Positions 7,811 to 34,734 of a stretch of DNA of 64,000 bases are shown one piece after another. Each line of letters starts with the position of its first letter. Position 1 is the first letter of the stretch. The stretch covers positions 17,882,085 to 17,946,084 of the forward strand of contig OY727103.1 of NCBI GenBank assembly GCA_963402885.1. Reading direction: 5' to 3'. The notes below the pieces were generated by a model. It worked only from the letters and a program-made list of their open reading frames with translations. It searched no databases and had not been told where the DNA came from. This DNA is from Antedon bifida (Eukaryota; Echinodermata; Crinoidea; Comatulida; Antedonidae). A program made the translations under genes and the position numbers.

Positions 7811-7876
7811 CGGTGACGCCCTCAAGGTGCCCGTCCTCACGGCGGAGGACGGGGTGGTGGGGTCGCCTACTTCAGT

Positions 7877-8616: not shown

Positions 8617-8629
8617 TTTACATAAGGCC

Positions 8630-9215: not shown

Positions 9216-9310
9216 GTACGTATTCTTCACTTACTTGTCGCCCGCCGCCGACTATGTTTAGTCCGGTGCTAGACTGGCTATATTGTTGGTAAGCAGGCAC
9301 GAAATAGACT

Positions 9311-9607
9311 ACACAAACCAACAGTGGTGTTGGTAGTCTATGAGTGCTGCTTACCTTGATAAACGCCCTCCCGCCGTCCCCACTGACAAGTGTACACATG
9401 AAATGATAATGCTACTACGTTGGATGGCTCCCTCTTGAGGGCGTGGTTACGGATGCGTGCATTTTCCGGAAGGGGTGCTATTTTGTATATACAGATTTTT
9501 CTTTTTCGTAAATTGTATCCTCTCTTCGGAGAGAGAGGCTATATTGTCGGTTTATCCAGGTAAGCAGCACTCACTAACAGACTACCAACACCACTGTTGG
9601 TTTGTGT
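9311..9607. repeat. Inverted complementary arms at the 3' end of the DIRS element
   Basis: A 46-nt segment at 9311-9356 recurs in reverse complement at 9558-9607, with one short insertion difference. Both contain the core CAACAGTGGTGTTGG. The ~200 nt between them is unique. DIRS elements carry a terminal inverted repeat and an internal complementary region near their 3' end, so these arms probably mark the right boundary. Confidence 0.7.
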
Positions 9608-9619: not shown

Positions 9620-11950
9620 GAATAACCAAAATTTGGTCTCTGTATGTGGTAAAAATTGTGTGTACTTTTAGGCAGGAGATGTTTAAAAATATGAACCTCT
9701 ACACTGTAGGTCCTCGGAAACACTATTTTACCCTTTAATACAACCTTGTGCTGACCTTTAATCTATCTAAGACCGCACTAAGCTAGCCTATCTATAGATA
9801 GGGTATATTTAGAGCCTACAAACAGAGAACATAGACGCAAAGTACTTCTATTTTGATCATAATTAAACCATACAATATACATTTAAGTCAAGGAATTTCC
9901 GGGTTATGTTTTCAAAAATGTAAGGAAAATATGTTTATAAATAATTGTGAAAATAACAAAACTTACGTGCTGCACTGAATCTACAGTATATCAAAGATTT
10001 TGTGAAGGGAATTGTGGAACACCTCATACAATAGGTTTCCTAAAAAGTAAGTTTTAGTCTAAAAATCCACCTTGTTTTTCTGAATTTTTCTACATAGCAA
10101 TCTTGTTTTTCTGCCTGGCATCTAGCCATCTTGTTTTCTACCTGGTTTAGCACATAACGCTACTGTACATCAATAGACTTACATTGCCTATAATTATGTT
10201 TATTGTTATGCAAAGTGCCAACTCCCTTTTTACTGCGTTCTGTGAGTTACAAAATCAGTCTTGCGTATTATTCTATTTAATAAAAAAATTGATAGGCTTA
10301 TAATACATTCAGTTTCAATCAATTGTATAAAGAAACCAAGCTATGCTATTCATATATGCAATACAGTAAATTGTTATGAGGCCTATGTAATTATAGACAG
10401 CGCACTCTACAGGTAGCTTTTCAATCACGCATTATTCACTAGCCTAGGGCCTCACACAATTTCAAAGCCTCTACTGTAGTCTACCTTGAATATTATGAAG
10501 CTATGAAAGCTATGCATAAAAAAATTAGGATTTTGTAATGTAATGTATTTTTGATACTAAATAATGAGTTCCTGGCAACATAGAGAGAAATAAATTTGAT
10601 TCTCGCCTATACAGTAAAATGTGCGATAAGTAAACAATATATTTATTATATATATATATATATTTTTTTTAGTATTTCGTATCATCCATGAAAATTATGA
10701 AATGAAGGTATAAATCTTGAGTACTTCATGTGTATTGTCTCAAACAAGATGTAATTAGAAAGTTTAAATCAACTTTCAGCACTAGGAGAAAATTCCACAT
10801 ATCTTGTATTTTTTTTACATGAAACATATGTCTTCATCAGAAATCCTGTAACGGTAATAATAATTACCTACCTGTGAGCAGAATATTTTGATTACACTAG
10901 TAATCTAGAACCTACTGTATGGCAAACATGTGAGTAGAGATGAGTTGTTTGTGTTTCCATGGAGAAAAGCTGGTTGTGAGAAACCCAGACTGATTTAGAC
11001 TCTGTGTGACATGTCTGTGTGTGCAGAAAAGGAAAATGAAAAGAGCCTAGAGAATGATGATTGGCTTAAAGCAAAGCCATATATATAAAGAGTTACGACA
11101 TTGGGTTAAAGTCATGTGATACCACTAGATGGTGAATTATCAATGTGCAAAGCGTACAGAAGTACTTGCGGCAAAGAATAATTACGCGAGTGTGCACTAG
11201 TACTTTATAAAGTTCGATTGATTGATTTTGGAATGAAACATCTCATAAATACGTATTATAATAACAATTATGGAATATTTTAAAATTCATAATGCATGCT
11301 TTGCTTACTAATAAAATAAACTGGCGTGGATATATTTGTTAATAATCTGAAAAGGGTATGAACAATATTAAAATAATAAAGGCAAATTATTACAAATGAA
11401 ATGATGAACAAGTCATGAAATTTAAAAGTTGGCGGTGCAGTTTGTGTCAAAATAGCTTTTAATCAATCCAATGTTGATTGTATACAGTATTGATTGACAA
11501 AGATAAAGGAATCATCTATGCTGAGTTTTGATTCAATTAAAGTTTTAGAGTGAGCCCTCTATTGACACAGATAAAGGAATCACTTATGCAGAGTGCTGAT
11601 TGGCTTAAAGTTGTAAAGTGGGACCTCTATTGATAAAATCGAGGGTCTGGGTCTGTGAGATGAACCAGTAAACTGGTACTCTTCCGAAATAAAGTGGACA
11701 CACGCTATACGTCTACTTTGTATGTCCAATTTTTAAGTTCTTATCTGAGAAATAACATTGTCCCCACAATTTTGTTTGTATTTGCTTTTCCATGCATCTA
11801 CATACATGGGTAGAAATGGGTATAAAATGACCTGAATAGCACATGGCCAGTATCTTATATGGCCAATATTAGATGTTTAAACATTTTAAACTTTTTTAAT
11901 TTTCAGTAATCCTGTCAACATTCTCAATTTGGAAAGAAGTATGCTCATAA
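9620..11950. other. Intergenic AT-rich stretch without a recognised gene
   Basis: No reading frame with recognisable similarity was found on either strand. The region holds a short (TA)n tract near 10650, scattered TAGGCCTA-like motifs, and a small direct duplication described separately. Confidence 0.6.
11493..11629 (+). repeat. Two-copy ~69-bp tandem duplication
   Basis: Two adjacent units each start with ATTGACA, contain GATAAAGGAATCA and end CCTCT. They differ at about one position in five, so this is an old tandem duplication. Confidence 0.65.
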
Positions 11951-11954
11951 AACG

Positions 11955-12180
11955 ACCCTTGAACCCAACTCTAATCTTAACACTAATCTAATTTTAATTA
12001 TTAATCCTAATAATGCTATTCCTAATACTAATCCTAACACTTATCTTAACACAATTCACTTACACTTACAATTCTCTTAACTTTAACACTTACCCTAACT
12101 TTAACATTAATCCTAACTTTAACAATATTTCTAACTTTAACATTATCCCTAACTTTAACGCTAATCCTAAACCAAACCCT
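11955..12180. repeat. Degenerate telomere-like (CCTAAC/CTTTAA) interstitial repeat
   Basis: About 220 bp are built from 6- and 12-mers such as CCTAACTTTAACA, CTAATCCTAACA and CCCTAAA. These resemble the C-rich strand of the metazoan telomere repeat (CCCTAA) after heavy mutation. Reading frames across it are periodic artefacts. Confidence 0.6.
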
Positions 12181-12289
12181 AAAACTTAATTTACCCAAAT
12201 ATGAGCATGCTTCTTCATTTTGTCTGAAAACATCTGCCAAAACATGGAGGTAGAGTGCTTTCGTGGGAAGTGGAGGTATGTTGTTCATG

Positions 12290-14830
12290 TCCGACAAAGC
12301 AATCTGGTCAAGATGAAGCAATGTGGTCAAGATGAAGTCATCTGGTCAAGATGAAGCCATCTGGTCAGCAAGAGTAGCGCCCGAGAGTATCGCCATGTTG
12401 CATCCATTAGAGTCTTGCCCTCCTGTATGAAGTGGCACCCGAAGGTAGCGCCCCGTACTTACGCCATCTGGGTGAGGCTGTGTCTGCCACATGGCCAGGT
12501 CACGATGAGAAAGTTACTCAGTTTGGGGAATAAAAAAGTCAGTGGTAGAGGCACCCAGAGGCGAGCGCTCCTCAGTGGTAACGCACTCTATGGTACCCAA
12601 CTGAATGGTATAGAGCTCAGAGGTAGCGCTCACGTGTAGGCCTATAGCTGTTTGTTACAATGGAGCACTCTAGAGGTAATTTTACAATATTTTACTGATG
12701 ATATTTTTGTCCATTTTATATTTTACTAGTGTTGGTCATTTTTCCATTTTAAGGTGATTTAATATTGTTGGTAATTTTCCCATTTTAAGGTGTTTATAAT
12801 AAATCAAAAAATATGTATTAATTTTATATGTTAATATTTATGTGCATAAATATTTTGATTTAAGTTTTCAATTTCTAGGAATAATGCCTGACAAGATGAA
12901 GCCATCTAGTCAAGATGAAGCAATCTGGTCAACAAGAGTAGCGCCCGAGAGTATCGCCATGTTGCATCCATTAGAGTCTTGCCCTCCTGTATGAAGTGGC
13001 ACCCGAAGGTAGCGCCCCGTACTTACGCCATCTGGGTGAGGCTGTGTCTGCCACATGGCCAGGTCACGATGAGAAGGTTACTCAGTTTGGGGAATAAAAA
13101 AGTCAGTGGTAGAGGCACCCAGAGGCGAGCGCTCCTCAGTGGTAACGCACTCTATGGTACCCAACTGAATGGTATAGAGCTCAGAGGTAGCGCTCACGTG
13201 TAGGCCTATAGCTGTTTGTTACAATGGAGCACTCTAGAGGTAATTTTACAATATTTTACTGATGATATTTTTGTCCATTTTATATTTTACTAGTGTTGGT
13301 CATTTTTCCATTTTAAGGTGATTTAATATTGTTGGTAATTTTCCCATTTTAAGGTGTTTATAATAAATCAAAAAATATGTATTAATTTTATATGTTAATA
13401 TTTATGTGCATAAATATTTTGATTTAAGTTTTCAATTTCTAGGAATAATGCCTGACAAGATGAAGCCATCTAGTCAAGATGAAGCAATCTGGTCAACAAG
13501 AGTAGCGCCCGAGAGTATCGCCATGTTGCATCCATTAGAGTCTTGCCCTCCTGTATGAAGTGGCACCCGAAGGTAGCGCCCCGTACTTACGCCATCTGGG
13601 TGAGGCTGTGTCTGCCACATGGCCAGGTCACGATGAGAAGGTTACTCAGTTTGGGGAATAAAAAAGTCAGTGGTAGAGGCACCCAGAGGCGAGCGCTCCT
13701 CAGTGGTAACGCACTCTATGGTACCCAACTGAATGGTATAGAGCTCAGAGGTAGCGCTCACGTGTAGGCCTATAGCTGTTTGTTACAATGGAGCACTCTA
13801 GAGGTAATTTTACAATATTTTACTGATGATATTTTTGTCCATTTTATATTTTACTATTGTTGGTCATTTTTCCATTTTAAGGTGATTTAATATTGTTGGT
13901 AATTTTTCCATTTTAAGGTGTTTATAATAAATCAAAAAATATGTATTAATTTTATATGTTAATATTTATGTGCATAAATATTTTGATTTAAGTTTTCAAT
14001 TTCTAGGAATAACACCCGACAAGATGAAGCCATCTGGTCAAGATGAAGCCATCTGGTCAAGATGAAGCAATCTGGTCAACAAGAGTAGCGCCCGAGAGTA
14101 TCGCCATGTTGCATCCATTAGAGTCTTGCCCTCCTGTATGAAGTGGCACCCGAAGGTAGCGCCCCGTACTTACGCCATCTGGGTGAGGCTGTGTCTGCCA
14201 CATGGCCAGGTCACGATGAGAAGGTTACTCAGTTTGGGGAATAAAAAAGTCAGTGGTAGAGGCACCCAGAGGCGAGCGCTCCTCAGTGGTAACGCACTCT
14301 ATGGTACCCAACTGAATGGTATAGAGCTCAGAGGTAGCGCTCACGTGTAGGCCTATAGCTGTTTGTTACAATGGAGCACTCTAGAGGTAATTTTACAATA
14401 TTTTACTGATGATATTTTTGTCCATTTTATATTTTACTATTGTTGGTCATTTTTCCATTTTAAGGTGATTTAATATTGTTGGTAATTTTCCCATTTTAAG
14501 GTGTTTATAATAAATCAAAAAATATGTATTAATTTTATATGTTAATATTTATGTGCATAAATATTTTGATTTAAGTTTTCAATTTCTAGGAATAACGCCC
14601 GACAAGATGAAGCCATCTAGTCAAGATGAAGCAATCTGGTCAACAAGAGTAGCGCCCGAGTGTATCGCCATGTTGCATCCATTAGAGTCTTGCCCTCCTG
14701 TATGAAGTGGCACCCGAAGGTAGCTGTTTGTTACAATGGAGCACTCTAGAGGTAATTTTACAATATTTTACTGATGATATTTTTGTCCATTTTATATTTT
14801 ACTAGTGTTGGTCATTTTTCCAATCCCTGT
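12290..14830 (+). repeat. 564-bp satellite array, four full units and one deleted unit
   Basis: The anchor AGAGTAGCGCCCGAG occurs at 12371, 12935, 13499, 14082 and 14646. Spacings are 564, 564, 583 and 564 bp. The 19-bp excess in one unit equals one extra copy of a short internal repeat, AAGATGAAGCCATCTGGTC. The units are almost identical. The fifth has lost about 200 bp at a TAGC microhomology. Each unit has a GC-rich half with GGTAGCGC motifs and an AT-rich half. A 74-codon frame recurs in every full unit, but it has no recognisable similarity, and identical units would preserve any frame. Confidence 0.92.
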
Positions 14831-14959
14831 TATTATTATTATTATTTTAAGGTGATTGTTGGTAATTTTCCCATTTTAAGGTTTTTTACTATTGTTGGTA
14901 ATTTTTTCATTTTACAATTTTTAACTGTCGATATTTTTTTTCCATTTTACGATACTTAT

Positions 14960-15345
14960 GATTATTATTATTGCAAGTGTCTATTATCGCAAGTGTCTAT
15001 TATCGCAAGTGTCTATTATCGCAAAAGTGTTTATTGTCGCAAGTATTTATTTATTGCCAGTGTTTACTATATTAAAAGTGTTTACTATATTAAGTGTTTA
15101 TTATGTCGCAAGTGTTTATTATGTCGCAAGTGTTTATTATGTCGCAAGTGTTTATTATGTCGCAAGTGTTTATTATGTCGCAAGTGTTTATTATGTCGCA
15201 AATGTTTATTATGTCGCAAGTGTTTATTATGTCGCAAGTGTTTATTATGTCGCAAGTGTTTATTATGTCGCAAGTGTTTATTATGTCGCAAGTGTTTATT
15301 ATGTCGCAAGTGTTTATTATGTCGCAAGTGTTTATTATGTTTTAT
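14960..15345 (+). repeat. Minisatellite, 16- then 18-bp units (GTCGCAAGTGTTTATTAT)
   Basis: The array opens with variant 16-bp units of GTGTTTATTATCGCAA type, then about 14 almost identical 18-bp units. Because 18 is a multiple of three, every frame stays open, which explains the long false reading frames here on both strands. Confidence 0.95.
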
Positions 15346-15514
15346 ATTATCTCTATCGAAACGGTAACATCATTTTTAGCCAGTTCATAATAATGGGTTT
15401 AATCGTTATCCTTAAGCATACATTAGAGATACTTTATTGTTGTTGGTAATTTTCCATTTTAAGGTGTTTTATTATTGATAGTATTTTTACCATTTTTTAT
15501 TTACTATTGTTATT
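15346..15514 (+). other. Short spacer related to the AT half of the 564-bp satellite
   Basis: The spacer contains GGTAATTTTCCATTTTAAGG, which also occurs in each 564-bp unit and near 14850-14880. It shows that the satellite and the minisatellites have exchanged sequence. Confidence 0.6.
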
Positions 15515-15875
15515 TCAAGCGTCTATTATATTACAAGCGTCTATAATATTACAAGCGTTTATTATATTACAAGCGTTTATTATATTACAAGCGTTTATTA
15601 TATTACAAGCGTTTATTATATTACAGGCGTTTATTATATTACAGGCGTTTATTATATTACAGGCGTTTATTATATTACAGGCGTTTATTATATTACAAGC
15701 GTTTATTATATTACAAGCGTTTATTATATTACAAGCGTTTATTATATTACAAGCGTTTATTATATTACAAGCGTTTATTATATTACAAGCGTTTATTATA
15801 TTACAAGCGTTTATTATATTACAAGCGTTTATTATATTACAAGCGTTTATTATATTACAAGCGTCTATATCGCAA
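15515..15875 (+). repeat. 18-bp minisatellite ACAAGCGTTTATTATATT, about 20 copies
   Basis: About twenty nearly perfect units, some with G in place of A at the ACA(A/G)GCG position. The same unit appears in reverse complement at 23725-23955, forming one pair of mirrored arrays. Confidence 0.95.
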
Positions 15876-16560
15876 GTGTGATCAAAACAGTACTGTCTGC
15901 AGATTGGATAATGGGTGTATGTCCTGCATAACTGGCTCAGCCTATATATTGTGCCAGTTCTGCGGTACATATCATTTGGAAACCTGAGCTGCACTGACGA
16001 GATCTAATAAGATCGAAACAGTACTGTCTGCAAAAAAAAAAATCCGATTAAATTTCAGGTCACCACATTTGGTCAGAATGGGTTTAGACTGGTAACCATA
16101 TGTCGATGGGCTACAGTAATGAAGCAGCAGCAGTGATTATGATTGCATTCAATTATTTTTCAAATGATATTCAGTGATTGCAAAATGATGAATGTTTTAA
16201 TAATACTGTTGAATCATCTCATGGTTTGGTGTTAATGTTAAAATGTCAAAAGAAATTGCTATAGAAGTGGTTACCAAAACAAAAAAAGGATATCATTATT
16301 GCCGACAAAAATCTTTCACTTAATAAAATATGTTGTGTTTAATAGAAAGTGAAAATTTACTTTCCTAGAATGAAATCGGCTGCGTAATTAGTTCTCAATG
16401 GTTAACAGTAGTATAAGAGTTTCAGGTAACACCAGTGTAAGTTTCTCAATGTATTGCTTCTCAGTGGAAATGTATCCGTGTAAGCCTCTTGGTATGACTG
16501 TCTGGGTATTATTAGTTATTTTATGTGTTCTAAGAGTTTATTCTTCAATCTATCTATTAT
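15876..16560 (+). repeat. Left arm of a long inverted repeat (non-satellite spacer)
   Basis: This ~0.68-kb sequence is largely the reverse complement of 23095-23720. Matching landmarks include CAGTACTGTCTGCAG (about 15889 and 23697), GAAGCAGCAGCAGTGATTAT (16122 and 23390) and CAATGTATTGCTTCTCAG (16448 and 23178). A second partial CAGTACTGTCTGCA occurs inside the arm near 16019. No coding similarity was recognised. Confidence 0.88.
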
Positions 16561-17378
16561 GGCAAATGTTTATAATTGCAAGTATTTAATATTGAAAGTG
16601 TTTATTATCGCAAGTGTTTATTATCGCAAGTGTTTATTATCACAATATATTGACTGTATATTTATTTGTTTATTATCGCATATGTTTATAATAGCCAGTG
16701 TTTATTGTTGCAAGTGTTTGTTATATTACAACTGTTTATTTTATTGCAAGTGTTTATTATCGCAAGTGTTTATTGTCGCAAGTTTTTATTGTCGCCCATG
16801 TTTATTACTGCAAGTGTTTATTACTGCAAGCGTTTATTATCGCAAGCATTTATTATCACAAGCATTTTCTTATTATGTCGCCCGTGTCTGTTATGTCGCC
16901 CGTGTTTATTATGTCACCCGTGTTTATTCTCGCAAGTATTATTGCAAGTTTCTATTATTATATCGCCGCAAGTGTCTATTATTATATCGCCGCAAGTGTC
17001 TATTATTATATCGCCGCAAGTGTCTATTATCATATCGCTGCAAGTGTCTATTATCATATCGCTGCAAGTGTCTATTGTCATATCGCCGCAAGTGTCTGTT
17101 GTTATTATTTCGCCGCAAGTGTCTATTGTTATTATTTCGCCGCAAGTGTCTGCTATTGCTATTACTTCGCCGCAAGTGTCTGTTATTGTTATTATTTCGC
17201 CGCAAGTGTCTGTTATTGTTATTATTTCGCCGCAAGTGTCTGTTATTGTTATTATTTCGCCGCAAGTGTCTGTTATTGTTATTATTACGTCGCAAGTGTC
17301 TGTTATTATTATTATTACGTCGCAAGTGTCTGTTATTATTATTATTACGTCGCAAGTGTCTGTTATTGGTTAATGTAG
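16561..17378 (+). repeat. Minisatellite with units growing from 16 to 24 bp
   Basis: The array begins with 16-bp units (GTGTTTATTATCGCAA type) and becomes 18-, 21- and 24-bp units such as CGCCGCAAGTGTCTATTATT. Longer units differ by added TAT/ATT triplets. Reading frames across it are artefacts of periodicity. Confidence 0.92.
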
Positions 17379-17384
17379 TTAAAG

Positions 17385-18150
17385 TTGAGTAGTATAAGAG
17401 TTTCAGGTAACACCAGTGTAAGTTTCTCAATGTATTGCTTCTCAGTGGAAATGTATCCGTGTAAGCCTCTTGGTATGACTGTCTGGGTATTATTAGTTAT
17501 TTTATGTGTTCCAAGAGTTTATTCTTCAATCTATCTATTATGGCAAATGTTTATAATTGCAAGTATTCAATATTAAAAGTGTTTATTATCGCAAGTGTTT
17601 ATTATCACAATATATTGACTGTATATTTATTTGTTTATTATCGCATATGTTTATAATAGCTAGTGTTTATTGTTGCAAGTGTTTATTATCGCCAGTGTTT
17701 ATTATCGCAAGTGTTTATTGTCGCAAGTGTTTATTGTCGCCCATGTTTATTACTGCAAGCGTTTATTATCGCAAGCATTTATTATCACAAGCATTTTCTT
17801 ATTATGTTGCCAGTGTCTGTTATGTCGCCTGTGTTTATTATGTCACCCGTGTTTATTCTCGCAAGTATTATTGCACGTTTCTATTATTATATCGCCGCAA
17901 GTGTCTATTAATATCACCGCAAGTGTCTATTATTATATCGCCGCAAGTGTCTATTATTATATCGCCGCAAGTGTCTATTATCATATCGCCGCAAGTGTCT
18001 GTTGTTATTATTTCGCCGCAAGTGTCTGTTATTGTTATTATTACGTCGCAAGTGTCTGTTAATGTTATTATTACGTCGCAAGTGTCTTTTATTGTTATTA
18101 TTACGTCGCAAGTGTCTGTTATTGTAATTATTTCGCCGCAAGTGTCTACA
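17385..18150 (+). repeat. Direct duplicate of the 16403-17378 segment
   Basis: The non-satellite lead (containing GGTAACACCAGTGTAAG) and the following graded minisatellite repeat the preceding ~1-kb segment, with fewer satellite units. A few substitutions distinguish the copies, so the duplication is recent but not identical. Confidence 0.9.
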
Positions 18151-18154
18151 ATTG

Positions 18155-18343
18155 GACGTGCGCTACCTAAAACTGGATGTGCGCTACCTAAAAGTGGACG
18201 TGCGCTACCTAAAAGTGGACTTGCGCTACCTAAAAGTGGACTTGCGCTACCTAAAATTGGACTTGCGCTACCTAAAAGTGGACTTGCGCTACTTAAAATT
18301 GGACGTGCGCTACCTCAAGACGGACTTGCGCTACCTACAGAAA
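18155..18343 (+). repeat. 21-bp minisatellite GTGCGCTACCTAAAAGTGGA, nine copies
   Basis: Nine units with alternations such as ACGTGCG/ACTTGCG and AAAGTGG/AAATTGG. The GCGCTACC core recurs in the 564-bp satellite (as GGTAGCGC) and in degenerate sequence at 34230-34660. Confidence 0.93.
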
Positions 18344-18368
18344 AATAACATTAATATTATGTCAAAAT

Positions 18369-19498
18369 AAAGTGGATTAACTTAATCCACTTAATTTATG
18401 TTAAAATTAAGTGGTAATTGTGATTTTTTAGCATTTGAAAAGCAAAAAAATTAAGTGGATTAACTTAATCCACTTAATATTATATCAAATTAAGTAATAT
18501 TATATCAAATTAAGTGGATTAAGTTAATCCATTTAATATTATATCCAAATTAAGTGGATTAACTTAATCCACTTAATTGTGATTTTTTAGCATTTAAAAA
18601 AAGCAAAAAAATTTAAGTGGATTAACTTAATCCACTTAATATTATATCGAATTAAGTAATATTATATCAAATTAAGTGGATTAAGTTAATCCACTTAATA
18701 TTATATCCAAATTAAGTGGATTAACTTAATCCACTTAATTGTGATTTTTTAGCATTTAAAAAAAGCAAAAAAAATTAAGTGGATTAACTTAATCCACTTA
18801 ATATTATATCAAATTAAGTGGATTAACTTAATCCACTTAATAATATATCCAAATTAAGTGGATTAACTTAATCCACTTAATTGTGATTTTTTAACTTTTG
18901 AAAAGCAAAAAAATTAAGTGGATTAACTTAATCCACTTAATATTATATCCAAATTAAGTGGATTAACTTAATCCACTTAATTGTGATTTTTTAGCTTTTG
19001 AAAAGCAAAAAAATTAAGTGGATTAACTTAATCCACTTAATATTATATCCAAATTAAGTGGATTAACTTAATCCACTTAATTGTGAGTTTTTTAGCATTT
19101 GAAAAGCAAAAAAAATTAAATGGATTAACCTAATCCACTTAATATTATATCAAAATTAAGTGGATTAACTTAATCCACTTAATTGTGATTTTTTAGCATT
19201 TGAAAAGCAAAAAAAATTAAGTGGATTAACTTAATCCACGTAATATTATATCAAATTAAGTGGATTAACTTAATCCACGTAATATTATATCAAATTAAGT
19301 GGATTAACTTAATTCACTTAATATTATATCCAAATTAACTTAATCCACTTAATTGTGAGTTTTTTAGCATTTGAAAAGCAAAAAAAATTAAATGGATTAA
19401 CCTAATCCACTTAATATTATATCAAAATTAAGTGGATTAACCTAATCCACTTAATATTATATCGAAATCCACTTAATTGGGATTTTTTAGCATTTGAA
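18369..19498. repeat. Array of about 20 near-perfect palindromes
   Basis: The core is a 29-bp palindrome: arm ATTAAGTGGATTAA, one central C, then the complementary arm. About twenty copies are separated alternately by TATTATATC(A)AA and by a T-tract/A-tract block. That block (TTTTTTAGC...GCAAAAAA) is itself an inverted repeat. Some copies have lost an arm or carry CACG in place of CACT. Every copy could form a cruciform or hairpin. Confidence 0.93.
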
Positions 19499-19515
19499 AA
19501 GCAAAAAGTAAATTA

Positions 19516-21160
19516 AAGCTTGAAGTATATAAGTAAACGCTTGAAGTATATAAGTAAACGCTTGAAGTATATAAGTAAACGCTTGAAGTATATAAGTAAA
19601 CGCTTGAAGTATATAAGTAAACGCTTGAAGTATATAAGTAAACGCTTGAAGTATATAAGTAAACGCTTGAAGTATATAAGTAAACGCTTGAAGTATATAA
19701 GTAAACGCTTGAAGTATATAAGTAAACGCTTGAAGTATATAAGTAAACGCTTGAAGTATATAAGTAAACGCTTGAAGTATATAAGTAAACGCTTGAAGTA
19801 TATAAGTAAACGCTTGAAGTATATAAGTAAACGCTTGAAGTATATAAGTAAACGCTTGAAGTATATAAGTAAACGCTTGAAGTATATAAGTAAACGCTTG
19901 AAGTATATAAGTAAACGCTTGAAGTATATAAGTAAACGCTTGAAGTATATAAGTAAACGCTTGAAGTATATAAGTAAACGCTTGAAGTATATAAGTAAAC
20001 GCTTGAAGTATATAAGTAAACGCTTGAAGTATATAAGTAAACGCTTGAAGTATATAAGTAAACGCTTGAAGTATATAAGTAAACGCTTGAAGTATATAAG
20101 TAAACGCTTGAAGTATATAAGTAAACGCTTGAAGTATATAAGTAAACGCTTGAAGTATATAAGTAAACGCTTGAAGTATATAAGTAACGCTTGAAGTATA
20201 TAAGTAAACGCTTGAAGTATATAAGTAAACGCTTGAAGTATATAAGTAAACGCTTGAAGTATATAAGTAAACGCTTGAAGTATATAAGTAAACGCTTGAA
20301 GTATATAAGTAAACGCTTGAAGTATATAAGTAAACGCTTGAAGTATATAAGTAAACGCTTGAAGTATATAAGTAAACGCTTGAAGTATATAAGTAAACGC
20401 TTGAAGTATATAAGTAAACGCTTGAAGTATATAAGTAAACGCTTGAAGTATATAAGTAAACGCTTGAAGTATATAAGTAAACGCTTGAAGTATATAAGTA
20501 AACGCTTGAAGTATATAAGTAAACGCTTGAAGTATATAAGTAAACGCTTGAAGTATATAAGTAAACGCTTGAAGTATATAAGTAAACGCTTGAAGTATAT
20601 AAGTAAACGCTTGAAGTATATAAGTAAACGCTTGAAGTATATAAGTAAACGCTTGAAGTATATAAGTAAACGCTTGAAGTATATAAGTAAACGCTTGAAG
20701 TATATAAGTAAACGCTTGAAGTATATAAGTAAACGCTTGAAGTATATAAGTAAACGCTTGAAGTATATAAGTAAACGCTTGAAGTATATAAGTAAACGCT
20801 TGAAGTATATAAGTAAACGCTTGAAGTATATAAGTAAACGCTTGAAGTATATAAGTAAACGCTTGAAGTATATAAGTAAACGCTTGAAGTATATAAGTAA
20901 ACGCTTGAAGTATATAAGTAAACGCTTGAAGTATATAAGTAAACGCTTGAAGTATATAAGTAAACGCTTGAAGTATATAAGTAAACGCTTGAAGTATATA
21001 AGTAAACGCTTGAAGTATATAAGTAAACGCTTGAAGTATATAAGTAAACGCTTGAAGTATATAAGTAAACGCTTGAAGTATATAAGTAAACGCTTGAAGT
21101 ATATAAGTAAACGCTTGAAGTATATAAGTAAACGCTTGAAGTATAAACGCTTGAAGTATA
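19516..21160. repeat. Highly homogeneous 21-bp tandem repeat, about 78 copies
   Basis: The unit AAGTATATAAGTAAACGCTTG is repeated about 78 times with almost no variation. One unit near 20185 has a single-base deletion, dividing the array into 32 and 46 copies. The last units shorten before the next array. As 21 is a multiple of three, all six frames run open, and the long open frames here should not be read as proteins. Confidence 0.97.
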
Positions 21161-23060
21161 ATAATAATAAGTGCTGGCAACGATAAATGTTGCCGACGAT
21201 AAGCACTGATAATAAACACTGGCGACGATAAGTGGTGCCGACGACAAGCGCTGATAATAAACATTGGCGATGACAAGTGCTGGCGACGACAAGCGCTGAT
21301 AATAAACACTGGCAACGATAAGTGCTGGCGACGATAAGCGCTGATAATAAACACTGGTGACGATAAGCGCTGATAATAAACACTGGCGACGATAAGCACT
21401 GATAATAAACACTGGCAACGATAAGTGCTGGCGACGATAAGCGCTGATAATAAACACTGGTTACGATAAGCACTGATAATAAAGAATGGCGACGATAAAG
21501 AATGGCGACGATAAGCGCTGATAATAAACACTGGCAACGATCAGTGCTGGCGACTATAAGCGATGATAATAAAGACTGGCGACGATAAGCACTGATAATA
21601 AACACTGGCGGCGATAAGTGGTGCCGACGACAAGCGCTGATAATAAACATAGGCGACGACAAGTGCTGGCGACGATAAGCGCTGATAATAAACACTGGCA
21701 ACGATAAGTGCTGGCGACGATAAGCGCTGATAATAAACACTGGTGACGATAAGCGCTGATAATAAACACTGGCGACGATAAGCACTGATAATAAACACTG
21801 GTGACGATAAGTGCTGGCGACGATAAGCGCTGATAATAAACACTGGTGACGATAAGCGCTGATAATAAACACTGGCGACAATAAGCACTGATAATAAACA
21901 CTGGCAACGATCAGTGCTGGCGACGATAAGCGCTGATAATAAACACTGGCAACGATAAGTGCTGGCGACGATAAGCGCTGATAATAAACACTGGTGACGA
22001 TAAGCGCTGATAATAAACACTGGCGACGATAAGCACTGATAATAAACACTGGCAACGATAAGTGCTGGCGACGATAAGCGCTGATAATAAACACTGGTTA
22101 CGATAAGCACTGATAATAAAGAATGGCGACGATAAAGAATGGCGACGATAAGCGCTGATAATAAACACTGGCAACGATCAGTGCTGGCGACTATAAGCGA
22201 TGATAATTAAGACTGGCGACGATAAGTGGTGCCGACGACAAGCGCTGATAATAAACATTGGCGACGACAAGTGCTGGCGACGATAAGCGCTGATAATAAA
22301 CACTGGCAACGATAAGTGCTGGCGACGATAAGCGCTGATAATAAACACTGGTGACGATAAGCGCTGATAATAAACACTGGCGACGATAAGCACTGATAAT
22401 AAACACTGGTGACGATAAGTGCTGGCGACGATAAGCGCTGATAATAAACACTGGTGACGATAAGCGCTGATAATAAACACTGGCGACGATAAGCACTGAT
22501 AATAAACACTGGCAACGATCAGTGCTGGCGACGATAAGCGCTGATAATAAACACTGGTGACGATAAGCACTGATAATAAAGAATGGCGACGATAAAGACT
22601 GGCGACGATAAGCGTTGATAATAAACACTGGTGATGATAAAGACTGGCGACGATAAGCGATGATAATAAAGACTGGCGACGATAAGCACTGATAATAAAG
22701 ACTGGCGACGATAAAGACTGGCGACGATAAGCGCTGATAATAAACACTGGCAACGATCAGTGCTGGCGACTATAAGCGATGATAATAAAGACTGGCGACG
22801 ATAAGCACTGATAATAAAGAATGGCGACGATAAGCACTGATAATAAAGAATGGCGACGATAAAGACTGGCGACGATAAGCGCTGATAATAAACACTGGCA
22901 ACGATCAGTGCTGGCGACTATAAGCGATGATAATAAAGACTGGCGACGATAAGCACTGATAATAAAGAATGGCGGCGATAAGTGCTGGCGACGATAGCAG
23001 ACACTGGCGACGATAGCAGACACTGGAGACGATAGCAGACACTCACGATAATAAACACTT
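21161..23060 (-). repeat. 29-bp composite minisatellite (GATAATAAACACTGGCGACG type)
   Basis: The dominant 29-bp unit is GATAATAAACACTGG followed by YGACGATAAGCGCT. It is interspersed with 15-16-bp half units (GATAAGTGCTGGCGAC). Higher-order blocks of several hundred bp repeat within it, for example around 21300-21540, 21700-21920 and 21930-22180. In reverse complement it reads GTGTTTATTATC, the same family as the left-hand arrays. Confidence 0.92.
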
Positions 23061-23094
23061 GTAATAATAAATATATTTACAATAATAAACACTG

Positions 23095-23720
23095 CCTATT
23101 TTAAAAATATGGAACACATAAAATGACTAATAATACCCAGTCAGACCAAGATGCTACCACGGATACATTTCCCCTGAGAAGCAATACATTGAAATGCTTA
23201 CACTGGTACGCGTTACTTTAAACGCTTACACTACTTTTTAAAAATAATTACGCAGTATATACCACCACTTAGCAATTTCTTCTGACATTATAACATTAAC
23301 ACCAAACCAAGAGATGAGTCAACAGTATTATTAAAACATTCATTATTTTGCAATCACTGAATATCATTTGAAAAATAATTGAATGCAATCATAATCACTG
23401 CTGCTGCTTCAGGATAAAGATTAAATACTACTATTTAGCCCATCGACATACGGTTACCAGTCTAAACCCATTCTTACCAAAAGTAGTGATCTTGTTAAAA
23501 ACAAATTTTATCTGATTTTTTTTTTGTAGTATATAATAAATATATATATATATTCTATCTGCAGACAGTATTGTTTCGATCTTATTAGATCTCATCAGTG
23601 CAGCTCAGGTTTTGAAATGATATGTACCGTAGAACTGGCACAATATATAGGATGAGCCAGTTATGCAGGACATACACACCCATTATCCAATCTGCAGACA
23701 GTACTGTTTCGATCACACTT
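23095..23720 (-). repeat. Right arm of the long inverted repeat
   Basis: This is the reverse complement of most of 15877-16560, with small indels and substitutions including a (TA)n insertion near 23540. It has the same neighbours in mirror order: the composite minisatellite inside and the 18-bp AAGCGTTTA array outside. Confidence 0.88.
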
Positions 23721-23724
23721 GTGA

Positions 23725-23955
23725 TATAGACGCTTGTAATATAATAAACGCTTGTAATATAATAAACGCTTGTAATATAATAAACGCTTGTAATATAATA
23801 AACGCTTGTAATATAATAAACGCTTGTAATATAATAAACGCTTGTAATATACTAAACGCTTGTAATATACTAAACGCTTGTAATATACTAAACGCTTGTA
23901 ATATACTAAACGCTTGTAATATACTAAACGCTTGAAATATAATAAACGCTTGAAA
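23725..23955 (-). repeat. 18-bp minisatellite, mirror of the 15515-15875 array, about 13 copies
   Basis: The units read AATATAATAAACGCTTGT on the plus strand, which is the reverse complement of the left-hand array. The outer units change to AATATACTAAACGCTTGT and then AAATATAAT variants. Confidence 0.94.
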
Positions 23956-24115
23956 TAAAAAACACTTTGAATAATAATCACTTGCTATAATAAAGTTGCG
24001 ATAACAAATGTTTGCAATAACAAACACTTTCAATAAACACTTGAAATAAAAAACACTTTGAATAATAATCATTTGCTATATTAAAGTTGCGATAATAAAT
24101 ATTTGCGACAATAAA
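23955..24115 (-). repeat. Two-copy degenerate extension of the minisatellite
   Basis: Two ~80-bp blocks both contain AACACTTTGAATAATAATCA and TAAAGTTGCGATAA. They look like decayed members of the same minisatellite family. From 24120 to 24530 no repeat or gene was recognised. Confidence 0.7.
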
Positions 24116-24534
24116 AATTAATATTTTACATGCACATTTTTGTTATTACTGTATGAAGGCTAGTTTTTATCGATGCGCACAAGAAATGGATTTTAATTTT
24201 CAATTGTCAAAAAAGTTTTATTACTCAAAAGTCAGTCTGAAAATCAAACTAAGATAAAGACACTCTTAGAATGTAAAAGATATATCATGTTTTTAAATTT
24301 CTGATGAGTAACACTAATAAGTAGTAAACCTTGATATGAAAAATTAATTCAATATTTTTTGAAAATCCTGCGTTGATTATTACTGTAGATTATTTATTTG
24401 TCTTAATTGTGAAGCAATTTTCCATTAAACCACACATATTGATAAACGAACTAATTAAAGTTACCCAATATTATTTATACTTAATTTTCTTATAGAAAGA
24501 CCACAATATGTCATTCACAGTATTATTACACTTA

Positions 24535-24865
24535 ATAAAAATAAACAATAAACACTTGCGATAACAAACACCAGTGATAATAAACACCGGCAATAATAAA
24601 TACTTGTAAAAATTAAACACTTGCCTAATAAACACTTGCGATAATAAACACTTGCGATAATAAACACTTGTGATAATAAATACTGGGTATAATAAGCACT
24701 GGCGATAATAAATACTTGCGATAATAAATACTTGTACAAATTAAACACTGGCGATAATAAACACTTGTAAAAATTAATCATTTGCGATAATAAACACTGT
24801 CGATAATAAACACTGGCGATAATAAACACTGGCGATAATAAACACTGGCAATAATAAACACTATA
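24535..24865 (-). repeat. Outer 16-bp minisatellite, mirror of 14960-15345
   Basis: About twenty imperfect units of GATAATAAACACTTGC or ...ACTGGC run in reverse-complement orientation relative to the left outer array. They mark the right edge of the symmetric satellite complex. Confidence 0.9.
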
Positions 24866-24869
24866 AATA

Positions 24870-27800
24870 TAAATATCTTCAATACCATATTTGTTAAAAA
24901 TAATGTTGTTTTACATGATCCCATAAAATATTTTCTGCAGTACAATTATAAAAGAATTGATTCGCATTACTGTACTAATGCTCTAGAAAATTAATTCGCA
25001 TTACAAATCTTCTATGAAAATATTTTTCTTTCCATTATGTACGATTTCTATTTGGAAAAAATGTATGATTTTTTATATTTCTTTTCCATGTTACCCAATC
25101 TATATTTTCATCATTAAAATAGTTTTTACATTTTGTTTTTCATCTAAATTGGTTTGTATTGTAAAACATAGGACAAGAATACTAATAAAAGAATTAACCC
25201 TTAGTCTCCAAAATGATCTTATAATTAATCATTATGACAGATGGATTTTTATATAATACTACTGATAATAAATTAATATTTATTTTAGGCAGACATTTTA
25301 TTGCAATTAATGAGGTATCTCTTACAATATTTTTTGTAAACTTCAGATTTCTCATCTTTATTGTTTTAAAATTATTTAATTACTTTTAAGTATATCACCG
25401 GGCGGTTTGGAATTTCTTAAAAATAAAAAGTTTCGAGTCTGACAGTGTGAATATTTGTAACTTTCCCTAAAGTTTGTTTTTTGTATACATGTAATGTTAC
25501 TCTTCCCTGGTTGTACTATTTGTTTGTAAGTACAGATACTGAACTCTACAATTTTGGTTTTTTCCCACATATATTGTACACTTTTACATTTTTAATTTTA
25601 TATCACGTTGCTAGCTGTAATTTTGTTATAATATGTGGTCGGTCATTATATGTAAAACTCAATACAAGCTAATAAAATGTAACAATAACATTTATTAAAA
25701 GAGAAGATCAAAACCATAAATTAATTACAAATTGTAAAGAAATTTCTATTTTACATGTTTACTACAATTAATTGTTTTGCTCAAGTGATCAAACTTGATG
25801 CTAATTCATTTCACATTCATATGATGCATACTACAATTATGTTACCAAATGTTAAAAAAAAATTTGCCTTTTCAGCCTACTACATAAAAATGAATGGTGC
25901 GAATGTAATTATAATTTCAAATACTATGGACTGTTCCAATCCAAACTACTATTATTCCATGAATCTTTACAGATTTGGTTGTTTGGCAACTGTGTTTAGA
26001 TTGTTCTACATCAGAAAATTAATATAAATAATATAATCTTCAATTTTTACCTAATTTGTATACTACTGACCTGAAAAATATAAGTACAGTATTTAAGAAA
26101 ACATAATATTAAATTTTTTTCATAAATTTTTACATGCAAATTTGTGTTATTATTTAGGCTAGATTCTACCTCCTAGAAATGCATTTGTACATAAAATTAA
26201 AAAAAATAAAATTTTGGTATATTTAAATTTCATTAAACTAATAAAAGAAAATTGTAAGTATGTAAGAAAAACATTAAAAAATGTATATATATAGTCAATC
26301 TTTTACTACAACTTTTACACGAACATTTGTGTTATTTTGTAGGCTAGTTTATACCGCCTAGAAATGACTTTATATTAATTATAAAAAAAAATGAAAATGA
26401 TATACTATTCAACTACAGCTGAAAAATGCATTTTTTAATTTGTGAAAAAATAAGATTTTGGTATATGAACAATTAAACCTGAAAAAAGTGTATGTTAAAA
26501 AATAAAAATCTGTATGATTTTATTATATTTGGACATATTAACTATTAACCTGAAAAAAAGTGTAAATGTAAAAAAAAAAACATTAAAAAAATAACCAATT
26601 TCTTTAGAAATGAGTATTTGTTTTGAAAATTGAGATTTTGGTACAGTATAATTGAACAAGTTAAAAATATGTAAGAAAAAAAAATTCTGTAATGTGACTA
26701 TGTAAGAAAAAAATTTAAAAAACAACAAAAATTAACCAATTTCTGTAGAAATTCATTTTTGTTTCCAAAATTAAGATTTACAATATATTAGAAAAATTAA
26801 ATTGCCTGAAAAAAATGTATGTTAAAAATGAATATAAATACAGAAACTTTATTGGTCCAACAAGGAAATTTGTTTGTTGACAGGCTTGAACGAACAGTTA
26901 GAAAAATATAAAATAAGTCATTGGTATACACAAATACAAGTGAAATTTGTAAAAAAATGAGATTTTAGTTCAGTAAATTTGAACAATTTAACTATTAAAG
27001 TAATTAAGTTTGCCTGAAAAAAGAAAATATAAGTATGTGTGGAAAATATTTTTAAAAATGAATATAGAAATGGATACTTTGTAAAACAAGTGAGATTTTG
27101 GTACAGTAAATTTTGAACAATTTAACTATTGTACTACAAACAAAACAAAAAAAAACAAAAGTAATTCTGTAAGAAAAACATTAAAAAAAATTAAACATGA
27201 TATAAATATTCAAAAGAAGCCTATAGAAATACATAAAGTATTCAAAATGTGTTAATAAATGAGATTTAAGTATATTTGAACAATTTAGCATTTCTGAAAA
27301 AAATTTGTATGCAAGAAAAACATGAAAAAAATTAATATACAGTAAATGATACAATATTCAATAAGAATTGCACATTTCTTTATAAATATTAAGATTTTGG
27401 TATATTTGAACAATTGGAAACCTGCTGGAAATAATACTATTTATTATTATAAATATTATTTTATTATTATGTATGGTCCAAGAAGGAAATTTGTTTGCTT
27501 GAAAAAACAGTTAAAAAATAAAGTAAGTTATAACATTTAAAATACGAATGAAATAAGAATATTAGAAATACATAAATATATTTTTCTATAGAATAGAAAT
27601 GCATATTTGTTTTCAAAAGGTAAAAGGTATTTATCCTGGCCACTGAGAAAATTCGAATTAGGCCTTCCACTACACCTACCAGATTAGCACACCAGGAGAC
27701 GATCCCTAAACAAAAATTTGGAAAATTAATTGAAATTTTGGTAGTAAATTTAATTAATATTTTTAGCTAAAAAAAGAATAAGAATGTTTAGCAAAACATT

Positions 27801-30800
27801 TTTAACAAAATGATAAAAAAATTTGTAAAACAAGTCAGATTTTTGTTCAACTATTATACTACCTGCCTGAAAAAATGTAAGCATGTTAGAAAAACATTTT
27901 AAAAATAAGAACAAATTATATAATATTCTACAGAAGCCTATGGAAATGCATATTGTTTTTCTAAAAAAGTAAAATAAAATGAGATTTTGGTACAGTAAAT
28001 TTAACTTAGCCTACCTGAAAAAGAAGTTGTAAGTATGTTATAAAAACATTAAAAAAATTATTAATAAATGATATAATATTTAACTAATAACATTTTATGG
28101 AATTGCATTTTTTTTCAAAATATTAAGATATTGGTATATTAAAATAATTTAACTGTTATACTGTCTGAAGAAAATGTAATTATGTAAGAATAAAAAGGTA
28201 AGTCATACAAAAATACAAGTGCTATAACAACAATGAATTAAATAAGAATATAAAAAACAACAGATTAAAATTGGAAAGATTTTGGTAAAGTAAGTTTGAA
28301 CAATACTGAATAAGCACTTGTAAGTAATATGTAGGAAAAATGTTTAAAAAAATGAATATAAATGATATAAAATTCACAAAAGTTTATAAAAATGCATGTA
28401 TTTCAAGCAAGATTTTGGTATTTGTTTTCAAAATGTGTTAATAAATGAGATTTGAATGATTTAACTACTTAATTACTTGGCCTGCCTGAAAAAAATGAAT
28501 ATAAATGATATAATACTCAATAGAAGCCTACAGAAATAATGCATAGCTGTTTAAAAAAAATAAATATAATATTCAACTATTGTATTTTTTTAAAAATTGT
28601 AAACATTTTAAGTATGTAACATTAGCCTATAAAACTATTAGCATGCCTGAAAAAAAATGTTAGTATGTAAGAAAAACATTAAGAAAATGAATATAAATAT
28701 TCAACTACATTTCATAGAATAGCACATTGTTTCTTCAATATTTGTAAAAATTGTTATATATATGACTCCCCACATGATTACTTCATTGTATTTATTATCC
28801 TGTATATTATTATATTGTGGAAATAAATTAAATTGAATAATGATATGATATTCAATCTTTTACCTTAATTTTTACATTCACATTTTTGTTATTAAGATTT
28901 TGGTATATCATGAATAATTTACCTGAAAAAAAAATTATATATTTAGAAAAAAAAAAAGAGATTTTGATATTTTAAAAATGTAATACTACTGTACATGCCT
29001 AAAGAATATGTAACAAAAATATTTAAATGGTATTTTGCTATATTAATCAAAATGATTAAACCTGCCTGAAAAAGATTTATAAGTATGTATTAAAAAAAAT
29101 GTCAAAATATAAATATATAAAAATTTGTACAAATTTAGATTTCTGTATATTTAACCAATTAAACTACCTGCATGAGACAATTGTAAATGTAAAAAAATGA
29201 AATGTTTATTATGCAGGATAAAATTATTTTAAATGAAATAATATTCAATAGAAATGCAAAAAAACAAATTAGTTTTAGTACTCAGTATATTTGAAAAATG
29301 TAATTATTATACTGCCTGGATAAAGTAGTACAAAGTACTGTATGTAAGAAAATTAAATTTTTACAAATTAAAATATAAATGATAATATTCAACTACTGTA
29401 TTAATTAAATAAACTTCCTGCTTGGAAAACAATTTTAAATGTAAAAAAAATGAATTAAAAATGAATTTTGTTATTATGAATGATTATAAATGCATTTCTT
29501 AATTAAAAAAAAACAAAACTTTGGTATATTTGAAAAATTCAACTGTACTGTAAATTGTAGGTTATAATATTCAACTATTTACCAAAAATTAATTCTTTTG
29601 TTTTTATAAATATTTTAACTTTTTGACCACAAACCCTATTAACTTAGAATGCCTGCATTTACAGATATTCAACACAAATATATTTTGCATAAAAATAATA
29701 CAATTGACTGAAATATCTCCATTTCTTTATTTTGAGTTTAAAAGGCAAAATTCCATTTTTATAAATAATCACATTCTACTGTCAAAAATTCCATTTTTTT
29801 TTCAAAATTAGATTTTGATACATTTGAACAATTTAAATATTGTATCTTTCAAATCTTATAACTTATTAGCATGCCTTATTCAAATTCTTACAACAGTAAG
29901 TTTACATATATTTTAGTATAGCATTTTATTTCTAATAAAATTTTAAAATGTCCAAAATATTTTATTTATAACTAATTTTTTGCATCTTCTACCAACTTTT
30001 TTTAGTTTATTACCCGAAAAAAATGTATATTACACAACCTTTGAATTTAAATTTGTTCAATTTTATTAAACCATAAAAAGCAAGTGATTCAACCTTTTAC
30101 CAACAATTATTTTGTTTTTCTAAATGTTTACAGATATAAACACAAATATATTTTGCATAAAAAATTAACTGAGATTTCTTAATTTGTTTTCAAGTTTGAT
30201 TTATTTTGAGTTTAAACGGTAAAATTCAATTTCATGAATAATCATCACATTCTACTGTCAAGAAAATTTTTTTCCCTAATTTGTAAACAAAATTAGATTT
30301 TGGTATATTTGAACAATTTAAATATTGTTACCTTTCAACTTTCGGACCATATAACTTAAGCATGCCTTATTCAAATTTAGTCAAATTCTTACAACATATT
30401 TTAGTATAGCATTTTTTTTCTACAAACAAAACAAAATTCCAAAATATTTTATTTATAAGTTCTTTTCCTTTATATCTATGATTTTGCATCTTCTATCAAC
30501 TTTTTTTAGTTTACTACCTGAGTAAAATGCAAATTACACTACCTTTGAATTTTAATTTTTTATATATTTCCTTACAAACCTCTAAGTTCATAAAGTGTTG
30601 ATGTTAATGAATTCAATACAACATTGAATACAATTTTAAAGCAGTGTTTTTTAAAATAAAGTTCAAGCATAACAATACTGTAGGAGCAACAAATATTTTT
30701 TCTAACTTCCAAAAAATGTTTTGTTTTCAAATTAAATACTTTCTTTCTAAACTAACTCAAAGCTTTAAAAAGTGTCAACATTTCACAGACATTTTTCAAA

Positions 30801-30900
30801 AATATTTTACTATTTTATAAAAACAATGTTTTTGATGTTTCTATTTACTACTCTGATTTTACATGTTATAGCAACTTGTTTTAGTTTAATACCGGAGACA
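24870..30900. repeat. AT-rich gene desert built of a degenerate long-period repeat
   Basis: From about 25.9 to 30.3 kb the motif AGATTTTGGTATATTTGAAC recurs about fifteen to twenty times in varied form, spaced roughly 120-300 bp apart. It alternates with CCTGAAAAAAATGTAAGTA and AAGAAAAACATTAAAAAA motifs. TTTTACATGCAAATTTGTG-like segments recur near 24127, 26132, 26314 and 28870. This is best read as an old, decayed satellite. No coding region was recognised on either strand. Confidence 0.6.
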
Positions 30901-31580
30901 AATGTTACTTTTTAAAAAGGCAAATGAACATTTAAAGAACATGATGATGAAACTGGAAGGGACCATTGTCATCAATTGAATTGATTGTATTGGATAAGAA
31001 AAACAGATATAATGAACATTGAAAGAACATTATGATGGCATTAAGGCCAGGGGGAAACTGGAGGACTTTAGTTACCGATACAGTAACTAAAGGGTGAAAT
31101 AATTGATAGTATTGGATAAGAAAAATTAGAGAGATTATGAAAACAGGAGGGAACCGTTGCCATTGGTTGAGTAAAAGACAGTGCCCTCACTGAGGGGATG
31201 TCAGACTACTTGAGAAAGCAAACATAGGGTAGTACTTTTTTTAAGTACTTTTTAAAATTAGTTATTACTCTTAGTGGGATAATTTTTGTAAGCAACCACA
31301 CAATAGAGGGTGCTATAAAAAAAACACATCATACTAAAAGATGATGCTATTAAAAACAATGTTTGGCATAGGTGTAGTATCTAGACAGGGCAAAGGCAGA
31401 AAACAAAATGTATTCTTTAAATTTATTTAACATACTAGGGGCCAGTACTTTTTACGCTATCAGGATTTTTTTCTCCCATATTATCTAAAAGAAAATGTAC
31501 CTTATAACGGAAGGCAAGAGGCTTAAAATAAAACAATATACTGTATATGATATATATATAATTTGCAACGATGAAATGAC

Positions 31581-31632
31581 GAAATCTGTGAGAATGAGAA
31601 AAGTCGACTTTTTCTCATTCTCACAGATTTCC
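31581..31632. repeat. 52-bp near-perfect palindrome (hairpin-capable)
   Basis: Arm GAAATCTGTGAGAATGAGAA faces its reverse complement across a central GTCGAC, with a single extra T. Weaker complementarity continues outward for about 15 nt on each side (AACGAT...ATCGTT). A transcript of either strand would fold into a long hairpin. Confidence 0.9.
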
Positions 31633-32097
31633 TTATCTTATCGTTTCAAATTAATTAATACATTTCAGTATATCACCAGGCTGTTTAGAATTTGTTCTAT
31701 GCCTGTGGTGTTTATATATATAAAATCTGGAACATGCTTCTGCTTATATAGTTTACATAATTATATAATAATTTATACAGATAAACAATGCTGACAGAGA
31801 CATTTTTTCGGATTGTCAAAAAGACAGGAGCATGCTCATAGCTAGGTATATTAAGTGATAAAGTTAGTGTTAGGAACCATTTCATGACCATGCACCTGTA
31901 TTCATTTTGATGGTCCGACTAATGTAGCTCTAAATATAGAAAGCATTGAAATTTATTTCCCTACTTATTAATTCCAAGTGATAACAACTTGTTACTGCAC
32001 ATGGAATAAAACATACGCGAAAAAAAAAAAAAAAATTGGAGATGAAATGCTGATATGTTTGTACAGGTCACCTAGCAAGAAGTGAGGACAAAAGGTA

Positions 32098-32157
32098 GGC
32101 AAAATTAATGACAACAGCAAAATTAATGACAACAGCAAAATTAATGACAACGGCAAA
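32098..32157 (+). repeat. Three-copy 18-bp tandem repeat
   Basis: Three copies of CAAAATTAATGACAACAG, the last with a G substitution. Confidence 0.85.
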
Positions 32158-34700: not shown

Positions 34701-34734
34701 TTCCATCGTCTTCTGTCCATATGTGGTCGGTAAA

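Follow-up and report, generated by a model that had tools for sequence, protein, structure and literature searches.

A foldback-like minisatellite complex in Antedon bifida that looks like an old local inverted duplication with relics of a self-cleaving-RNA element

The TU elements of sea urchin, which are invertebrate foldback elements, have an outer domain of tandem repeats, and the transposons Foldback (FB), Galileo, Tetris, and Tm1 likewise have long inverted arms of short tandem repeats, with arms of unequal length. According to passages of the respective papers, the tandem repeats in the terminal inverted repeats (TIRs) of Galileo contain extra transposase binding sites (PMC3688188), the TIRs of Tm1 from root-knot nematodes contain tandem repeats of 13-15 bp, the two TIRs of an element having a mean identity of 93.15% (PMC3169594), and Tetris of D. 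virilis has similar TIRs, a sea-urchin foldback element being cited in the same source (PMC4079207). Another group of known elements is the metazoan retrozymes without long terminal repeats (non-LTR retrozymes), which carry type I hammerhead ribozymes (passages of PMC7229834). Here we describe a tandem-array complex at positions ~14960-24870 of a 64,000-nucleotide stretch of the crinoid Antedon bifida (contig OY727103.1, C16 below; C16:17882085-17946084), which is called the window, and the genome searches reported below have used one assembly of 315.6 Mb. The structure looks like an old local inverted duplication with relics of a known self-cleaving-RNA element, and not like a new transposon.

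A previous reading of the window, made from the sequence alone (the sequence-only reading), described a mirror-symmetric foldback in which layers of minisatellites repeat in inverted order outward from a core. This mirror structure is real in part: an inverted structure exists, but it is looser than described. The layers of the complex are as follows.

14965-15345, plus strand: left outer array, mostly 18-bp units TTATTATGTCGCAAGTGT according to Tandem Repeats Finder (TRF)
15346-15510, no strand assigned: left spacer between the outer and 18-bp arrays, 84% like the 564-bp tandem unit of the left flank over 69 bp
15511-15868, plus strand: left 18-bp array, 19.9 units
16033-16560, plus strand: remainder of the left arm spacer, in which 16045-16560 matches the two complexes described below and has one weak 73% match elsewhere
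16561-18150, plus strand: left graded arrays with periods of 16, 18, 24, and 30 bp, including a tandem duplication (~16410-17385 and 17386-18147)
18146-18337, plus strand: 21-bp array CTAAAAGTGGACTTGCGCTAC, 9.1 units
18360-19480, no strand assigned: array of short palindromes, ATTAAGTGGATTAA-CTTAATCCACTTAAT, around which the strand switch lies
19514-21145, minus strand: core 21-bp array, 77.8 near-identical units
21161-23060, minus strand: right graded arrays with periods of 29, 45, 74, and 119 bp
23060-23725, minus strand: right spacer, inverted partner of 15869-16560
23726-23965, minus strand: right 18-bp array, 12.9 units
23966-24116, minus strand: degenerate 16-bp units
24547-24862, minus strand: right outer array, 16-bp units

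The 18-bp arrays and their adjoining spacers form a true inverted repeat, as the sequence-only reading had it: 15511-16575 is homologous to the reverse complement of 23060-23965, with 764 of 819 aligned bases identical (93.3%) and with indels, and the longest ungapped inverted pair is 290 nt at 95%. Polarity is strict throughout. Between 14950 and 24880, the motif CAAGYGTYTATTA, with up to two mismatches allowed, has 96 plus-strand and 0 minus-strand occurrences in the left part, whereas the right part has 156 minus-strand and 0 plus-strand occurrences; in the remainder of the window it occurs 4 and 5 times on the plus and minus strands, respectively, and five Markov-1 simulated sequences of 64 kb gave 4-7 and 4-10. 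Except in the palindrome array and in the 21-bp array of 18146-18337, a motif near CAAGYGTYTATTA is common to all arrays. There are also direct relationships within the left side, since the two halves of the tandem duplication in the graded arrays are 96.5% identical over 777 aligned bases, and the left outer array with its preamble (14885-15331) is a direct relative, at 74.6%, of the preamble and 18-bp array at 15433-15879.

How closely the layers pair depends on the layer. All 13 units of the right 18-bp array match the left 18-bp array best, and the proposed mirror therefore holds here. The graded arrays at 16561-18150 and 21161-23060 are mutually the closest class by best unit match (39/39), a count in which this class is favoured because its left member holds 54 units and the other left classes hold 21 and 20. 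They mirror each other as a class, but not in unit order (Spearman 0.05 and 0.12, inside the range of -0.24 to 0.16 given by five block-shuffled controls) and not in period, the main periods by TRF being 16/24/30 bp on the left and 29/45 bp on the right. The outer arrays are paired by whole-array BLAST, in which 24547-24857 matches 14965-15300 at 79.6% vs 75.7% for the left graded array, but the units tell otherwise: of the 17 right outer units, 15.6 are matched best by the left graded arrays and 1.5 by the left outer array, a count in which the larger graded class (54 vs 21 units) again has the advantage, mean similarity is 0.65-0.67 to all three left classes, and the periods are mostly 18 bp on the left and 16 bp on the right. 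In the DNA just beyond both outer arrays, no homology between the two sides was found (local score 27 vs a shuffle mean of 32, p 0.87).

The palindrome array in the core (18360-19480) aligns with its reverse complement at 71-80% over stretches of 450-840 bp. Unmentioned in the sequence-only reading, like the tandem duplication of the left arm, is that the core as a whole is asymmetric, with the 1.6-kb 21-bp array at 19514-21145 lying only to the right of the palindrome array; the units of this array are closest to the left 18-bp array in 78 of 78 cases. MicroRNA family matches in the core all stayed under gathering scores and are located in the palindromes.

The sequence-only reading proposed a search for other loci with the arm 15876-16560, and this search has revealed one further complex on the same chromosome, while the listed matches elsewhere cover only the ribozyme part of the arm, described below. 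The two complexes lie in the following segment.

11357-35797, no strand assigned: duplicated segment of 24.4 kb, with a second copy at C16:17066458-17092870, inverted and ~800 kb away

Read in the opposite orientation, the second locus follows this segment collinearly through both flanks, and the ends are sharp: beyond them, the 100 kb read contains no more than four short matches (156-183 bp, 77-81%), none of them collinear. At the ends no direct repeat was found, nor any shared 9-mer in the first copy; in the second copy there are two shared 9-mers, AT-rich and overlapping, which are not located at the ends. Since the flanks are common to the two loci on both sides, the second locus is a segmental duplication of 24-26 kb and not an element insertion. 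It resembles inverted segmental duplications in having two inverted copies with sharp ends on one chromosome, and differs from them in that the duplicated segment holds an older, smaller inverted repeat. Depending on the block, the flanks of the two copies differ by 1.7 to 9.9% substitutions, and the polarity of CAAGYGTYTATTA in the second copy is the same (137:0 and 0:150).

Several searches place the complex at these two loci; the genome DNA search scores the best candidates and skips simple repeats. With 16045-16560, for which all 7 candidates were scored, 9 matches were obtained, of which 8 lie at the window locus and at C16 17.0788-17.0867 Mb and the ninth is a weak match (73%) of 16238-16375 with C14:21611065-21611192, where no motif match was found within the 8 kb read. 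An exact pattern with the 18-bp period, into which the left outer array also falls but diverged arrays would not, had 63 of its 63 genome matches in the two loci, with 0 for reversed-pattern controls. With the right flank 24863-26000 (best 40 of 102 candidates scored), the only long match is at the second locus, the further matches being a dispersed piece of ~70 bp and one match of 191 bp at 70%.

Some features of the segment were noted in passing. By eye only, 16238-16375 and its C14 relative (4065-4192 of the stretch read) look like a short coding stretch. The left flank at 12300-14724 is a tandem array of 564-bp units that are 97-99% alike and contain 19-bp and 36-bp subrepeats, and the right flank at 24870-31000 is very AT-rich (~20% GC in parts) with diverged internal direct repeats of ~58% identity. 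The ~70-bp piece, at 25344-25415, is repeated on many contigs, ~365 bp apart in places, and a GC-richer tandem array of 71 bp lies at 34739-35519, near the right end of the duplicated segment.

Alignment of the four arms gives the order of events. The two left arms differ at 7 of 679 positions (1.0%), the two right arms at 16 of 643 (2.5%), and left and right arms at 74 of 592 (12.5%). Among the sites that split the four arms two by two, 57 unite the two left arms and the two right arms, and 0 conflict with this. Thus, the arms had already separated when the segmental duplication took place, and no sign of later conversion between them is seen. Because the two paralogues have a readable relative age, the turnover of each layer of arrays can be measured: between the window and the second copy, respectively, the left outer array has 21.5 and 19.5 units, the right outer array 19.6 and 13.8, the left 18-bp array 19.9 and 25.9, the right 18-bp array 12.9 and 22.6 (plus a block of 6.6 units), the left second 30-bp block 5.5 and 44.8, and the 21-bp array at 18146-18337 9.1 and 11.1.

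Each arm spacer also contains a hammerhead ribozyme motif, of which the sequence-only reading made no mention. The motifs and the units to which they belong are as follows.

15880-16032, plus strand: left retrozyme relic, consisting of a partial hammerhead, a 131-bp unit between predicted cleavage sites, and a full hammerhead motif
15989-16032, plus strand: left hammerhead motif, predicted cleavage after 16028, Rfam HH9 21.9 bits
23555-23714, minus strand: right retrozyme relic, 133-bp unit
23559-23603, minus strand: right hammerhead motif, predicted cleavage after 23564, Rfam HH9 28.6 bits

The gathering score of HH9 is 52, above both arm motifs, and an Rfam scan of the window at gathering scores reached no family. 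In a permissive scan of 10 kb, HH9 was obtained with E 0.0008 for the right motif and E 0.11 for the left (15990-16032), and in a whole-window scan only the right motif was listed (E 0.005); the right alignment spans all three stems, with gaps. The pattern CTGANGAGN{6,20}CGAAA occurs twice in the window vs 0.03 times expected. A partial hammerhead copy lies one unit upstream in each arm, giving 131 and 133 nt between the predicted cleavage sites, and in the window's left arm one catalytic position of this upstream half-motif is off consensus. Compared with shuffled sequences, folding is better for the left unit (z -3.86) and weakly so for the right unit (z -1.47), and in the isolated motifs the hammerhead fold is not that of minimum energy, the best fold being lower by 0.6 kcal/mol on the right and by 3.8 kcal/mol on the left. 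The motif is present in all four arms of the two copies, with the catalytic core pattern intact after the 12.5% arm divergence. Judging by strand order, we would assign the arm hammerheads to type I.

The ribozyme unit occurs elsewhere in the genome. Scoring of the best 40 of 210 candidates with 15876-16560 as query gave 51 listed matches, 9 of which are in the two complexes and 42 elsewhere on 11 contigs, the latter covering only the ribozyme unit (33-164 of the query). The sequence-only reading had called this spacer unique, which does not hold for the ribozyme part. Because its copies on other chromosomes lack the remaining arm sequence, the unit is an element in its own right within the arm. 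Twelve of the dispersed loci were fetched and inspected. In them, a family-tuned pattern detected 20 hammerheads, 18 with an intact core, and a pair of motifs spaced 275-290 bp is present at 8 of the 12 loci. By eye, 10 of the 12 copies stop at the same point just beyond the predicted cleavage site and are followed by TA-rich DNA, and of the remaining two one is followed by other sequence and one continues into a further unit; the 5' ends are variable. A match to the ribozyme pattern was also seen on one contig of a viral collection (L001 1373-1399, minus strand).

For retrozymes, we looked for short tandem repeats, a monomer of 150-450 bp, and low GC, the GC being measured in the arm units only (0.44 and 0.40). 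In hammerhead core, tandem motifs, and scattered loci, the dispersed family fits the metazoan retrozymes, as far as passages of PMC7229834 describe them, and its copies fall within the monomer range. The arm unit differs from them in being shorter, at 131-133 bp, as it lacks ~150 bp of the dispersed monomer, and in being embedded in an inverted minisatellite block. Part of the arm spacer is thus a retrozyme relic, which was in the arm already before the arm duplication and has been kept inside a foldback structure.

The explanation that we consider probable is an inverted duplication in which minisatellites and a retrozyme were copied about a palindromic array, with separate array turnover and then segmental duplication as the later events. 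The locus would have started as a block of minisatellites of one family, in which a retrozyme copy adjoined the 18-bp array. This block may then have been duplicated in inverted orientation around the array of short palindromes, which left the two arms on opposite strands, possibly by fold-back or template switching at a hairpin in replication or break repair. The arrays of each arm would subsequently have grown, shrunk, and become homogenised separately, giving their differing periods and lengths. The entire locus, flanks included (24-26 kb), was subsequently copied once more, inverted, ~800 kb along the same chromosome. A local inverted duplication with turnover and later segmental duplication accounts for the polarity, the flank-like spacers, and the single paralogue, and the ribozyme units in the arms are most likely passengers. 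The palindromic amplification that the sequence-only reading named as its second possibility comes close to this, and it fits better than a Foldback transposon, with an inversion step that we infer. If this explanation is correct, a giant Foldback-like structure can arise without transposition, by inverted minisatellite duplication and then arm-by-arm drift.

Several points weigh against this explanation. The arm ends coincide with array boundaries, and the arms have internal tandem repeats, both of which recall Foldback elements; whole-array BLAST pairs the outer arrays, as a larger element with terminal arrays predicts; and the core is not symmetric. The arm divergence is uneven, with 21 differences in 330 positions of the outer half and 53 in 262 of the inner half, although the ~20% of the inner half is partly noise, because alignment at array edges is uncertain. 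The inversion step and its mechanism are also matters that we infer.

An alternative is a single old non-autonomous Foldback-type DNA transposon, mobilised in trans, that inserted here, decayed, and was later carried in the segmental duplication. Long inverted arms with tandem subrepeats, by which Foldback elements are recognised, are present here, the subrepeats are unequal at the two ends, the outer arrays pair at 79.6%, and the TIRs of Tm1 and Tetris are comparable in the passages cited above (PMC3169594, PMC4079207). The likeness may extend to the TU elements, and a literature search for these sea urchin elements found no paper. Such a transposon predicts dispersed copies with different flanks and a target-site duplication (TSD), and neither was found. 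At the outer ends, where the sequence-only reading suggested looking for a TSD, the longest shared word is 7, within the range of 5-9 for 50 right control windows; at the inner ends no shared word of at least 7 was found in one model, and a wider model without a control of its own gave AT-rich words of up to 8. Dispersed arm copies with different flanks were not found in the one genome searched, in which the best-scoring candidates and the exact pattern gave two loci only, with flanks in common. This is close to the state of an arm that is single-copy with no empty allele, which the sequence-only reading had itself named as evidence against its proposal: there are two copies in one duplicated segment and no empty site in one assembly. 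Furthermore, the spacers between inner and outer arrays resemble the adjacent flanks, on the left (84%) and weakly on the right (60%, E 1.5e-6), which is a misfit with a single inserted element with terminal arrays. No coding domain was found in the stretches scanned, which also suits a non-autonomous element and agrees with the earlier remark that no transposase was seen: a Pfam search in six frames at E 0.01 gave no match in 11357-14958, 15869-16563, 24900-29881, and 29880-34861, i.e. the flanks and left spacer. In its lack of dispersed copies and of a TSD above control, its flank-like spacers, and the flanks common to both copies, the complex departs from FB, Galileo, Tetris, and Tm1, and the transposon reading is unsupported by the searches; we regard it as unlikely.

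A composite retroelement, in which the ribozyme arms are the inverted terminal repeats of a Penelope-like or Terminon-like element, is very improbable. Hammerheads do occur in the pseudo-LTRs of Penelope-like elements and in Terminons, which are also found in tandem (passages of PMC11167929 and PMC6431247), but the copies of the ribozyme unit on other chromosomes stand without further arm sequence, and neither a reverse transcriptase nor a GIY-YIG domain was found by Pfam in the flank and left-spacer stretches scanned. Among eight papers listed in a literature search, one, PMC6431247, contains both hammerhead ribozyme and foldback by term count, and its passages on hammerheads deal with Terminons.

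The length of the core 21-bp array bears on a further idea, that the locus is a working unit with two inward-pointing hammerhead units in inverted arms, inverted minisatellites as long hairpins, and a core array at a maintained fixed length. Its transcripts from either side would then cut themselves and yield small RNAs. This core array has 77.4 units in the second copy vs 77.8 in the window by TRF; by unit pattern either copy has 76 units, of which 75 are uniform, and a single fixed difference sets the two copies apart. The constancy could reflect recent homogenisation of both arrays together with either chance or a constraint on length, and we give the working unit only a slight chance. By eye, an edge unit of the core array in the second copy retains the state of the first copy.

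Inverted tandem arrays are hard to assemble, but an artefact from a chimeric hairpin read or mis-joined arrays is hardly credible, because the diverged paralogue 800 kb away keeps the same inverted order and repeats the polarity, and the arms differ by 12.5% in shared columns.

Searches with parts of the complex outside the animal's genome gave little: exact array and arm patterns had 0 matches in viral contigs, the 16-bp array pattern had 0 matches in prokaryote genomes, the left spacer had no match in phages, and no mention of six motif strings of the complex was found in the literature. In the rest of the window, 6000-9500 is GC-rich (up to 57%) with long open reading frames (ORFs), two of which were scanned without a Pfam match. 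Among the 10 window ORFs searched with Pfam, an integrase match remained below the curated cut-off, and only a reverse-transcriptase ORF at 43594-45339 and two ORFs with thrombospondin repeats were above it. For the former, 602 homologues were found, of which the best 120 were listed. The latter two, on the minus strand at 54291-61295, have repeats of the spondin type and lie in a stretch with tandem duplications.

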